A stretch of 64,000 bases of DNA from an uncultured Synechococcus sp. (lineage in GTDB: Bacteria > Cyanobacteriota > Cyanobacteriia > PCC-6307 > Cyanobiaceae), in assembly GCA_913049535.1 (NCBI GenBank), contig CAJWYF010000001.1:62001-126000 (forward strand), written 5' to 3'. The position numbers and the translations under genes were made by a program. Each line of letters opens with the position of its first letter. The stretch's first letter is position 1. This document shows positions 28,080-60,541 of this stretch, piece by piece. A model generated the notes under the pieces. That model was given only the letters and a program-made list of their open reading frames with translations, had not been told where the DNA came from and did not search any database.

Positions 28080-28113
28080 AGGGTTATGAGTCCTCGTTTG
28101 AGGAATCAATGAA

Positions 28114-29097
28114 TCACTGAATCTGCTGAACAGCAGCCAGGGACTTGCGGCGGATGCCGGAGGGCAGGGGCACATAGCCGAGGCTGGGGGCCTGGCTCTG
28201 AGCCTTGTTGCTCAGCATGTAGGCGAAGGTCTTCTTCAGCGCAGGGGTGTTGTCACCGTTCTCGGTGGCGTAGGCCAGAACCCAGGTCAGGGTGCTGATG
28301 GGGTAGGCGTTAGCGCCCTTGGGGTTGGTGTCGGTGCCAGCCAGGTTCTCGTCGAGGACGATGCCAGCCAGACCGGCGGAACCGTTCTTGGAGGTGGGCT
28401 TGACGAAGTTGCCATCAGCGTTCTGGATGGCAGCGGCCTTGATGGCGCCCTTCACGTAAGCCTGGTTCACATAACCCAGACCACCAGGGGTGTTCTTGAT
28501 CACGCCGGCAACGCCGCTGTTGCCCTTGCCGCCGGAACCGGTGGGCCAGTTCACAGACTTGCCAACGCCGATGTCATCCTTGAAGGCGCCGCTCCAAGCA
28601 GCGACAGCGTTGGTGAAAGCGAAGGTGGTGCCGGAACCGTCAGAGCGGTAGGCCACGGTGATGGGGCCAGCAGCGCAACCGACTTGGCTGTAATCGGTGA
28701 TCTTGCCGAGGAAGATCTCAGCAACCTGCTTCTGGGTGAGCTTGAGGTTGCAACCGGGCTTGTTGTAGCCAACGGCGATGGTGCCGCCGGTCATGGGGAT
28801 CTGGATCACGCCACGCTTGATCTTGGCGCGCTTCTTGTCGCTCAGGGGCTTGTCGGAAGCACCAAAGTCAGAGGTGCCTGCGATCATCTGGCGAACGCCA
28901 GCACCGGAACCCACGGCCTGATAGTTGACCTTGGGGCCACCGGAAGCAGCCAGTTCCTGGAACCACTTCTGGTACAGGGGAGCGGGGAAGGAAGCACCAG
29001 CGCCGTTGAGGGACTGCTGGGCCAGAGCGGGAGCGATTGCGGCAGCGCTCAGAGCAACGAGGGAGCTCAGAGCGATGGCCTTCTTGGCGACGGGCAT
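28114..29097 (-). CDS. pstS: Phosphate ABC transporter substrate-binding protein PstS
   Basis: Signal peptide; LNGAGASFPAPLYQKWFQEL, GSGAGVRQMIAGTSDFGASDKPLS. Confidence 0.96.
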   Translation of the reverse strand: MPVAKKAIALSSLVALSAAAIAPALAQQSLNGAGASFPAPLYQKWFQELAASGGPKVNYQAVGSGAGVRQMIAGTSDFGASDKPLSDKKRAKIKRGVIQIPMTGGTIAVGYNKPGCNLKLTQKQVAEIFLGKITDYSQVGCAAGPITVAYRSDGSGTTFAFTNAVAAWSGAFKDDIGVGKSVNWPTGSGGKGNSGVAGVIKNTPGGLGYVNQAYVKGAIKAAAIQNADGNFVKPTSKNGSAGLAGIVLDENLAGTDTNPKGANAYPISTLTWVLAYATENGDNTPALKKTFAYMLSNKAQSQAPSLGYVPLPSGIRRKSLAAVQQIQ

Positions 29098-29139
29098 GGG
29101 AGCCAGACGAGACGTCAGATCCTTGATACGGCTGAGTTG

Positions 29140-29283
29140 TTAAGAACTCATTGTCTCGTCCGTATCGATTCCTACGGAAACCCCCAAAAACAACGGATCC
29201 ATGTGCAAGAAGTCTTCTGGCCTCGGCGGCACAGGGGGCGGAGGACCGATGTCACCCTGACGCGAAGGGGCTGATTCCTTCAT
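29140..29283 (-). CDS. Candidate small proline-rich protein (47 aa)
   Basis: In-frame ATG to stop; MKESAPSRQGDIGPPPPVPPRPEDFLHMDPLFLGVSVGIDTDETMSS; lies in the otherwise noncoding pstS/dnaK divergent gap. Confidence 0.4.
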   Translation of the reverse strand: MKESAPSRQGDIGPPPPVPPRPEDFLHMDPLFLGVSVGIDTDETMSS

Positions 29284-57212: not shown

Positions 57213-57233
57213 TCTCCTGAGATGTTCAGACCC

Positions 57234-58382
57234 ATGGACGCCCTGCTTGTGCTGGCTGATGGCACCGTGCTGCGCGGCAGGGGCTTTGGCGCCATTGGTA
57301 CAGCCATCGGTGAAGTGGTGTTCAACACCGGCATGACCGGTTACCAGGAGGTCATCACCGACCCCAGTTACACCGGTCAGCTGATCACTTTCACCTACCC
57401 GGAGCTTGGGAACACCGGCATCAATGGTGAGGATCTCGAGGCCGATGTACCGGCCGTTAACGCCGTGATCACCCGTGAGCTTGCCCCTGCAGCCAGCAAC
57501 TGGCGCAGCAGCGGCAGCCTCGAGTCATGGCTGCAGCAGCATGGCGTTGTGGGCTTGAGCGGTGTCGACACCCGTGCCGTAGTGCGGCTGCTGCGCGAGG
57601 GCGGTGCCATCAATGGCGCCGTCAGCAATGACGGCACCAGCCCGCAGGAGCTCCTCCAGCGTGTGCGTCAGGCCCCATCCATGGAGGGCCAGAACCTGGC
57701 GGCTCAGGTCAGCACGGCAAGCCCTTACCAGTGGCAACAGGCGACAGCGGCCGGCTTTGACCAACGGCTGCAGGCCCAGCCTGCGCGGCCTTACCGGGTC
57801 GTGGCCATCGATTTCGGCATCAAACGGGCGATCCTCGAGCGCCTCAGCGCCCATGGCTGCCATGTGGAGGTGTTGCCCGCCAGTGCCGGGATTGATGAGG
57901 TGATGGCCCTGCAGCCCGAGGGGGTCTTCCTCTCTAATGGCCCTGGCGATCCAGCGGTGGTGAGCAGTGGGATCGCCTTGGCTGAGGCCCTACTGCTGCA
58001 ACCGCAATTGCCGCTGTTCGGGATTTGCCTGGGACACCAGATCCTCGGTCTGGCCCTCGGTGGCACCACCTTCAAGCTCGGCTATGGCCATCGCGGGCTC
58101 AACCACCCCTGCGGCGGTGACGGTCTGGTGGAGATCACCAGCCAGAACCATGGGTTTGCCATCGATGCAGCCAGCTTGGATTCCAAGCGTGTCGCGATCA
58201 CCCACCACAACCTCAATGACGGCACGGTGGCGGCACTGGAGATGCGTGATCAGCCGGTGTTCGGAGTGCAATACCACCCGGAAGCCTCGCCAGGGCCCCA
58301 CGACGCTGACCACCACTTCAGCCGTTTCACAACCTTGATGGCAGAGCGGCGCAACATCGATAAGATGGAGCGCCTCCAGTAG
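57234..58382 (+). CDS. carA: Carbamoyl-phosphate synthase small subunit
   Basis: [65 protein letters not shown]. Confidence 0.97.
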
Positions 58383-58411
58383 GCGGCTGTTCGTGCAAGA
58401 GGTCTGGAACC

Positions 58412-58780
58412 ATCACTGATCTTCAGCGACTCACTGTCTCCCTCCGGGGCGGATTCGAGCCCCAGGATCACTGTCTGCTGTTCCATTTCACTGGACAGCT
58501 TGATGCTTATTCCGAGCGTCAATTCCGTGATTTCATTGCCGATCAATCCACTGGCCAGTCATTGCCGCTGGTGCTTGATCTGAGCCGGATTGATTTCATC
58601 GACTCTTCAGGATTGGGCGCACTTGTTCAACTCGCCAAGCAGTGGAACGAGTCCAAGCGACGCTTTCTGATTGTCGGCAACAGCCGTGTCCTGCAAACCG
58701 TCAAGCTCGTGCGGCTGGAATCGTTCTTGAACCTTCAGCCCGACCTGTCGACGGCCATGGGCAGCCTTGCCGCTGCCTGA
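58412..58780 (+). CDS. STAS-domain protein (anti-sigma factor antagonist family), candidate AUC start
   Basis: TDLQRLTVSLRGGFEPQDHCLLFHFTGQLDAYSERQFRDFI...LVLDLSRIDFIDSSGLGALVQLAKQWNE. No ATG/GTG/TTG in frame between the upstream stop (58361) and TTG 58562. Confidence 0.75.
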   Translation: MTDLQRLTVSLRGGFEPQDHCLLFHFTGQLDAYSERQFRDFIADQSTGQSLPLVLDLSRIDFIDSSGLGALVQLAKQWNESKRRFLIVGNSRVLQTVKLVRLESFLNLQPDLSTAMGSLAAA

Positions 58781-59153
58781 CGGCGTCCAGCCAGGCCCCG
58801 CCCAGTTGGCATGGCTGGGTGATGCCGTCTGGGAGTTGCACCAGCGTCGTCGCTTTGTTTTTGAGCCCGGTTCGACAGCCCAGCTCCATCGCCGCACGGT
58901 GGCGTTGGTGCGAGCTGAGGCACAGAGCACTGCTTTGGCCCAACTTGAGCCTGATCTGTTGCCTGAGGAGTTAGAGCTGGTGCGCAAGGGGCGCAACGCC
59001 GCTGGACGAGGACCAAAACGCAGTGATCCGGGTGTTTATGGTCGGGCCTCAGGATTTGAGACAATGGTGGGCTGGCTCTATCTGAACAACCCCGCACGGC
59101 TCGAGCAGCTGCTCAGCCGCCTGGAGCGTTGTTGCTCCCCCGATCCGGGGTGA
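58767..59153 (+). CDS. mrnC: Mini-ribonuclease III (MrnC-like)
   Basis: LAWLGDAVWELHQRRRFV...ELVRKGRNAAGRGPKRSDPGVYGRASGFETMVGWLYL. Confidence 0.87.
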   Translation: MPLPDGVQPGPAQLAWLGDAVWELHQRRRFVFEPGSTAQLHRRTVALVRAEAQSTALAQLEPDLLPEELELVRKGRNAAGRGPKRSDPGVYGRASGFETMVGWLYLNNPARLEQLLSRLERCCSPDPG

Positions 59154-59188
59154 GCAGGTCTGGAGCCCTGACTGTCTGCGTTGTCTCC

Positions 59189-60541
59189 ATGCCTCCCCGT
59201 TCCCGTCGCCCCTTCAGCCGCCCCGATGGGCCCGGCCGACCTGGGGGACGGCGCGGCGGCTCCGATCGTTTTGAGCGGCGTGAGCGTCCCTACCGTTCAG
59301 AGCGATCTGATCGTGGCGAGCGCCCTGATCGCTTTGACCGTCCTGATGGAGAACAGCGGCCTGGCCGGGGTGAGCGAGCCGTTGGTGGCCGCGCCCGTTT
59401 CGATCGTTTTGACCGCAGCGAGCGACCGGGCAACCGCGGCCGCAGCTCCAGGCCGGAACGTTTCGATCGTGGTGAGCGCTTCTCTCGCTCTGGCCCGCCA
59501 CGCCGTGATGGTGAGCGCCGTGACGGCGAGCGGCGCGATGGTCGCCCTGTGCGTCGCTTTGCTGCTGCTGGTCCGCGCCCGGAGCGCCAGGAGCGGTTTG
59601 ATCGCTATGAGCGCCGTGACCATGAACCTCCCGTTGCTGAAAGTTCTGCCAGTCCTGAAGTCGATGATCTGATCTGGGGCCTGCATGCAGCCCAAGCAGC
59701 GCTCGAGAGCGGCAGGCCTATCCACAGGATCTGGTGCACAACGGAAATGCGCTTTCGCAGCCGTTTCCTGCAGTTGCTCAGAGAGGCCAAGGGCTCTGGC
59801 GTTTTGGTCGAGGAGGTCACCTGGGCCCGTCTGGCCCAGCTCAGCGGCGGCGGCGTGCACCAGGGCATCGTCCTGCAGACCGCTGCAGCCGACACCGTTG
59901 ACCTTGATGCCCTCATCAACGGCTGCTCCCGCATCGGTGAAGCTCCCCTGCTGATGGCGGTGGATGGCCTCACAGACCCCCACAACCTCGGTGCCATCGT
60001 CCGCAGCGCCGAGGCTCTTGGTGCCCATGGGCTGGTGCTGCCTCAACGGCGCAATGCAGGCCTGACCGGATCGGTGGCCAAGGTGGCCGCTGGCGCTTTG
60101 GAACATCTGCCGGTGGCTCGGGTCGTCAACCTCAACCGGGCGCTGGAGAAGCTGAAGGATTCTGGCTACAGGGTGGTCGGTCTGGCTGAGGAGGGCAGTG
60201 CCACCCTCGTTGAGGCCGACCTCGACGGTCCCTTGGTGGTGGTGACCGGCTCTGAGGGTCAGGGCCTTTCGATGCTCACCAGGCGCCATTGCGATCAGCT
60301 GATCCGCATTCCCCTCAGGGGCATCACTCCGAGCCTGAACGCATCGGTGGCCACGGCCATGCTCTGCTATGAGGTGGCGCGCCGCGGTTGGATGGCCAAC
60401 CTCAAGGGACAGGACCCAGCGCCGCGGATTCAACGCGCCCAGATCCACGTGGATCCTGCTGATGTCAGCACCACAGCCGCTGAGCCAGAGGGCTCAGAGC
60501 CTGCATTCGATGCACAACCGGACACGGAGATTCGTCTATGA
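59189..60541 (+). CDS. rlmB: SpoU/TrmH-family rRNA 2'-O-methyltransferase (RlmB-like) with RG/FDR-rich N-terminal extension
   Basis: C-terminal SpoU motifs (DGLTDPHNLGAIVRSAEALGAHGLVLPQRRNAGLTGSVAKVAAGALEHLP; VVTGSEGQGLS; IPLRGITPSLNASVATAMLCYEV); N-terminal Arg/Asp/Gly repeats. Confidence 0.9.
   Translation: MPPRSRRPFSRPDGPGRPGGRRGGSDRFERRERPYRSERSDRGERPDRFDRPDGEQRPGRGERAVGGRARFDRFDRSERPGNRGRSSRPERFDRGERFSRSGPPRRDGERRDGERRDGRPVRRFAAAGPRPERQERFDRYERRDHEPPVAESSASPEVDDLIWGLHAAQAALESGRPIHRIWCTTEMRFRSRFLQLLREAKGSGVLVEEVTWARLAQLSGGGVHQGIVLQTAAADTVDLDALINGCSRIGEAPLLMAVDGLTDPHNLGAIVRSAEALGAHGLVLPQRRNAGLTGSVAKVAAGALEHLPVARVVNLNRALEKLKDSGYRVVGLAEEGSATLVEADLDGPLVVVTGSEGQGLSMLTRRHCDQLIRIPLRGITPSLNASVATAMLCYEVARRGWMANLKGQDPAPRIQRAQIHVDPADVSTTAAEPEGSEPAFDAQPDTEIRL

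Follow-up and report, generated by a model that had tools for sequence, protein, structure and literature searches.

The window, a stretch of 64,000 nucleotides from an uncultured Synechococcus sp., contains downstream of carA an open frame coding for a STAS-domain protein, whose conserved N-terminus is encoded ahead of every canonical start codon (ATG, GTG or TTG) that the frame offers. This raises the question of which codon starts its translation. The features of the region, all on the forward strand, are listed below with the evidence for each.

57222–58382 (+): carA, carbamoyl-phosphate synthase small subunit, the upstream neighbour, in another frame (Pfam CPSase_sm_chain and GATase; ORF)
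58361–58363 (+): in-frame TAA closing the STAS frame upstream (sequence)
58399–58402 (+): GAGG, Shine-Dalgarno-like, 9 nt before the start codon (sequence; comparison of 196 loci)
58412–58414 (+): ATC (AUC) start codon of the STAS gene (ATT, ATC or ATA in 195 of 196 distinct orthologous loci; family scan)
58412–58780 (+): STAS-domain anti-sigma-factor antagonist, Ssr1600 orthologue, 122 aa if started at the ATC (Pfam STAS, TIGR00377, AlphaFold2, SpoIIAA match in the PDB)
58604–58609 (+): serines S65 and S66 of the DSSG motif, corresponding to the phosphorylated S59/S60 of Ssr1600 (sequence; numbering of PMC12329169, offset 6)
58767–59153 (+): mini-ribonuclease III, the downstream neighbour, start codon not certain (Pfam Ribonuclease_3, 82.6 bits)
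59129–60541 (+): 23S rRNA methyltransferase whose N-terminal part is rich in Arg and whose start is uncertain; we take it to be RlmB-like from recognition of its sequence (ORF, gene order)

The STAS frame of the window

The frame is opened by the TAA at 58361–58363 and ends at 58780. According to the preliminary description, no ATG, GTG or TTG occurs in it between TAA 58361 and TTG 58562, and a reading of all the codons gave the same result; TTG 58562 is the first canonical candidate start. The Pfam STAS domain is matched with 59.6 bits (cut-off 22.6) by residues 34–131 of the open frame. When TTG 58562 is taken as the start the score falls to 40.8 bits and half of the domain is lost, as had been anticipated. 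The ATC at 58412–58414, which had been put forward as a start candidate with a GAGG about 9 nt upstream of it, is indeed separated from GAGG 58399–58402 by a 9-nt spacer. Of the in-frame codons of the window, 7.2% are canonical starts, and at this frequency a run of about 66 codons devoid of them has a P of ~0.007 per gene. Coming from a single genome, this statistic is weak: the gap is unusual but is not decisive alone, and it is the cross-species comparison that gives it significance.

At the STAS start, a search for RNA elements in Rfam returned sub-threshold matches only, and neither a sigma-70 promoter nor a terminator was found in the STAS region of the window. In L011, L014, L030 and many other marine Synechococcus and Prochlorococcus loci, a CTACACTTC element is conserved about 40–50 nt before the start codon. 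Its resemblance to a −10 box suggests a separate promoter and a short leader for the STAS gene at those loci. The window does not carry this element, and just 29 nt lie there between the end of carA and the ATC. Elsewhere in the window, a long start-less open frame at 28102–29268 (+) runs antisense to a PstS-like gene (28114–29097, −); since it has no Pfam match, it is most likely a spurious antisense frame.

Start codons in the family and across the class

A contig scan of genomes yielded 48 relatives. Where the window has ATC 58412, all 44 picocyanobacterial relatives, as well as the one from Leptolyngbya, carry ATC, ATT or ATA, and the other three (L045, L047 and L048) have an ATT one codon farther upstream, as aaaggagggtagaATT. 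When 400 genomes of the same family were scanned with a degenerate pattern covering codons 1 to 10, the form of the pattern beginning with ATT, ATC or ATA (ATH) was matched in 327 of them and the ATG form in none of the 400; the CTG/GTG/TTG form was matched in none of 121 genomes.

With a protein profile, the gene was detected in every one of 242 Cyanobacteriia genomes, representing 120 genera; among about 100 genomes from the phylum's other classes, no match appeared at E 1e-15. One class member (G306, family f30, 99% complete) has other STAS proteins and gave no match to the gene profile; gene loss or divergence is possible there. The start regions of 196 distinct orthologous loci, pooled from several genome sets, were aligned on the conserved LTVSLRG motif for the comparison of start codons that had been recommended as a check. 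The start codon is ATT in 115 loci, ATC in 53, ATA in 27 and ATG in a single one, and it stands exactly six codons before the motif in 191 of the 196. An earlier thought, that the orthologues might start elsewhere in frame after an upstream frameshift, does not fit these loci.

The noncanonical start is a class-wide feature of Cyanobacteriia, far beyond an oddity of one genome. Among the options first considered for ATC 58412, a genuine AUC start is the one supported by the ATT, ATC or ATA of 195 of the 196 loci. A recent change from ATG to ATC is excluded, the orthologues almost never having ATG, and a sequencing error is excluded by the 196 loci together with the family scan. An error, a recent mutation or a pseudogene in one genome would account for that genome if it were read alone, but the same feature is present in hundreds of independently sequenced genomes, including the complete ones of RCC307 (L005) and WH7803 (L030), and we give this explanation practically no credence.

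The only ATG locus (L111, also L235) belongs to G148 (G148:C1:21743-22093), the sole genome of its genus in the sample, and it retains a GGGAGG site and a TTG at codon 7. AUG is tolerated at least this once. A FastTree phylogeny of 194 proteins requires 26 or more changes of the start codon; it drifts freely among ATT, ATC and ATA, and one change leads to ATG. If the third base changed freely, about one third of the changes would be expected to lead to ATG; for the observed 1 in 26, P is ~4e-4, a value that is approximate because the tree was built from a short protein.

The surroundings of the codon are conserved as well. A purine-rich, Shine-Dalgarno-like run is found about 10 nt upstream in nearly all of the 196 loci, with a G at −10 in 96% of them; an exact complement of four or more bases to the anti-Shine-Dalgarno sequence is present in 161 of the 196, and most of the others have runs of G. 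Both −2 and −1 are occupied by pyrimidines in 182 of the 196 loci, and a dipyrimidine at −1/−2 has been mentioned as a suggested cyanobacterial initiation signal (PMC5622118).

No canonical start occurs between the upstream stop and ATH in 126 of the 196 loci, an in-frame stop is found at most six codons upstream of ATH in 59, and 32 have a canonical start neither upstream nor within the first 30 codons. An in-frame canonical codon is present somewhere upstream of ATH in 70 loci, and many loci have a TTG or GTG 6–10 codons downstream of it (for example a TTG as the seventh codon or a GTG as the ninth). Individual loci may make minor use of such codons. That ATH is an internal Ile of a longer protein was considered and rejected, in view of the stops a few codons upstream and the lack of a canonical start in many genomes.

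The short distance from carA, of which the end is just 29 nt upstream of the ATC in the window, could also mean that the protein is an in-frame extension or a frameshift product of carA and needs no start codon. However, carA is in another frame and has its own stop, many genomes have an in-frame stop immediately ahead of ATH, and no conserved peptide was found upstream of ATH among the orthologues. The gene order carA, STAS, mini-RNase III and rlmB is common to the window and Roseofilum (L045). At locus L220 a TPR protein is encoded upstream instead of carA and a mini-RNase III-like ORF follows, yet the ATT and its Shine-Dalgarno site are unchanged. A product of carA is very improbable on this evidence.

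Other genes served as controls. A canonical start was found near the N-terminus of carA in 31 of 31 loci, and stand-alone STAS paralogues from the same genomes had one at the expected place in 17 of 17 cases, 16 of them ATG.

Relation to Ssr1600

The STAS protein of the window scores 59.4 bits against TIGR00377 (cut-off 53.45) and 35.3 bits against the SpoIIAA equivalog TIGR02886, below its cut-off of 114.75. Its AlphaFold2 model (pLDDT 90.6) has an extended strand from residue 11, and the top Foldseek match of the model is to a Bacillus-type SpoIIAA (1tid_B, E 5.5e-08, TM 0.82); the matches from a profile search of PDB sequences include anti-sigma-factor antagonists. The protein has the STAS fold and the phosphorylatable serine of the DSSG motif in common with SpoIIAA and RsbV, from which the score below the equivalog cut-off sets it apart. 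D64, S65, S66 and G67 are invariant in the protein alignment and correspond to the S59/S60 loop of Ssr1600 from Synechocystis PCC 6803.

The residues of Ssr1600 listed in PMC12329169 were compared by hand with L220, a comparison that covers these listed residues. L24, D25, F27, S28, R33, G43, F56, I57 and D58, as well as S59, S60, L62, G63, V66, Q67, K70, L93, V94, L96 and F99, all match L220 at a constant offset of 6, so that the DSSG serines, the interface residues and the suppressor sites are common to both proteins. It is on the ground of this constant offset that the STAS gene is identified as the orthologue of the gene for the anti-sigma-factor antagonist Ssr1600. The Ssr1600 of Synechocystis, a phosphorylation target of Slr1861, governs the formation of the SigC holoenzyme; its amount controls RNAP-SigC, loss of this amount rescues, and overexpression of Ssr1600 slowed growth in high CO2 (PMC12329169).

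The offset also means that the published numbering of Ssr1600 begins at residue 7 of the ATH-started protein, six codons after ATH, and the annotated start of Ssr1600 would be a downstream codon. The term "start codon" does not occur in the text of PMC12329169. Taken at face value, this numbering implies that a downstream TTG or GTG is the true start and that ATH lies in an untranslated leader, and many loci have a codon that would serve for this, a TTG in seventh or a GTG in ninth place. These downstream codons are not conserved, though, and the 32 loci devoid of a canonical start both upstream and in their first 30 codons have none to offer; what is conserved in register, in 191 of 196 loci up to LTVSLRG, is ATH, the Shine-Dalgarno site and the six intervening codons. 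The Shine-Dalgarno site is normally spaced from ATH and about 24–30 nt away from the downstream codons, and half the domain would be lost in the window if the first downstream start were used. We consider a downstream start quite unlikely. The comparison supports the ATH codon very strongly as the start position, and it shows the conservation of this codon, the lack of canonical alternatives, the Shine-Dalgarno site and the identity of the protein.

Outside the window, the same genome encodes one clear HATPase_c_2 (RsbW/SpoIIAB-like) protein of about 153 aa (61.2 bits, G000:C1:147070-147363), which could be a candidate kinase partner of the STAS protein.

Noncanonical initiation and its possible role

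To our knowledge, the well-characterised noncanonical starts of bacteria are few, namely those of infC, pcnB and sigR. Third-base mismatches to the initiator tRNA give start codons that IF3 discriminates against; infC of E. coli and other bacteria, with AUU or AUC instead of AUG, falls into this class like the STAS gene. The preliminary description had cited infC as a precedent, which is apt in kind, but the gene codes for an anti-sigma-factor antagonist and not for infC's product, IF3, so there is no direct feedback loop. In cyanobacteria infC itself is mostly canonical, a canonical start being found near the N-terminus in nearly all of the 30 loci used as a control. The infC genes of L209, L212 and L214, which belong to one genus of family f24, lack ATG and GTG near the N-terminus, where the only candidates are a TTG, 18 codons ahead of INERIRF, or an ATC, 11 codons ahead of it; this genus may use a noncanonical start for infC.

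As in infC, pcnB and sigR, the STAS gene has a near-cognate codon at the right Shine-Dalgarno spacing and no usable canonical start. E. coli pcnB likewise starts with AUU, its expression being limited by the inefficiency of this codon according to a title cited in PMC9410913, and its protein is unrelated. Another likeness is to sigR of Streptomyces. This gene has a AGGAGGTG site, starts with GTC and undergoes repression by IF3, and giving it a canonical start breaks the balance between sigma and anti-sigma factor (PMC5472188). Both genes code for sigma-control proteins of ratio-sensitive systems, and both have an extended Shine-Dalgarno site and a noncanonical start that is misannotated in databases. 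They differ in that sigR codes for a sigma factor, has GTC or GTT and is reported as conserved within Streptomyces only (PMC5472188), whereas the STAS gene codes for an anti-sigma antagonist and has AUU, AUC or AUA class-wide; IF3 control, shown for sigR, is inferred for the STAS gene.

It is very probable, in our judgement, that translation starts at the conserved AUU, AUC or AUA (AUH) and that AUG is selected against, most likely to keep the output low and sensitive to IF3. The AUC of the window, and AUU, AUC or AUA elsewhere, would be read as a third-base-mismatched start by the initiator fMet-tRNA, with fMet as the presumed first residue, and the strong Shine-Dalgarno site and the pyrimidine pair just before the codon would hold the AUH start in place. 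Selection would keep AUG out across the class Cyanobacteriia. By discriminating against AUH, IF3 would slow synthesis, and the amount of Ssr1600 would follow IF3 and the 30S initiation capacity; the ratio of the antagonist to its kinase/anti-sigma partner, set in this way, would determine the share of RNA polymerase carrying SigC. In vitro, IF3 cut the full-length output from AUU with a CAU-anticodon initiator to 31% (PMC10158994). An IF3-responsive scarcity is proposed here because the layout of the gene, with its strong Shine-Dalgarno site, near-cognate codon and ratio-sensitive product, is like that of sigR. We infer that the output is low, that IF3 governs it and that this is its physiological purpose.

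The AUH start could also be real and simply set a fixed low rate of synthesis, free of regulation by IF3, with the strong Shine-Dalgarno site tuning the level and the weak codon retained on account of the harm done by overproduction. The slower growth in high CO2 on overexpression of Ssr1600 (PMC12329169) agrees with this, as does the free drift among ATT, ATC and ATA, which is expected if weakness alone matters, and the title cited in PMC9410913 describes E. coli pcnB as translationally limited by its inefficient AUU start. However, a weak Shine-Dalgarno site combined with AUG, GUG or UUG would do equally, as in other genes, and a strong one combined with AUH in nearly every lineage is the arrangement of infC and sigR. 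We see a fixed low rate as a possibility worth keeping in mind and lean against it. Our preferred reading, of an IF3-sensitive start, can be extended to an ancient, class-wide translational sensor, in which IF3 and the 30S capacity, and with them the growth state, would act through the antagonist level on which sigma factor is chosen, in oxygenic cyanobacteria as a whole, AUG being actively selected against. This extension is offered tentatively, at a little under even chances.

A paper by Nakamura et al. from 2024 reportedly deals with PmgA and Ssr1600. Proteogenomics of Nostoc 7120 yielded eight genes that, as revised, start with ATA or ATT; the main text leaves them unnamed (PMC8557916). 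The AUH start may have been noticed earlier in either of these works. No description of an AUH start of the Ssr1600 gene was found in the open full-text literature searched, where only unrelated papers came up for non-AUG starts in Prochlorococcus, and its class-wide conservation is, as far as we have seen, apparently unreported there. It follows from the finding that the Ssr1600-type protein is truncated, extended or overlooked by gene finders in many genomes. It also follows that the published numbering of Ssr1600, and any construct derived from it, begins about six residues late and lacks the native start. Almost all of the cyanobacteria examined keep the AUH start, Prochlorococcus and marine Synechococcus among them, an unusually deep conservation, and it falls in a gene whose dosage sets the use of SigC, responding to inorganic carbon and probably to light.
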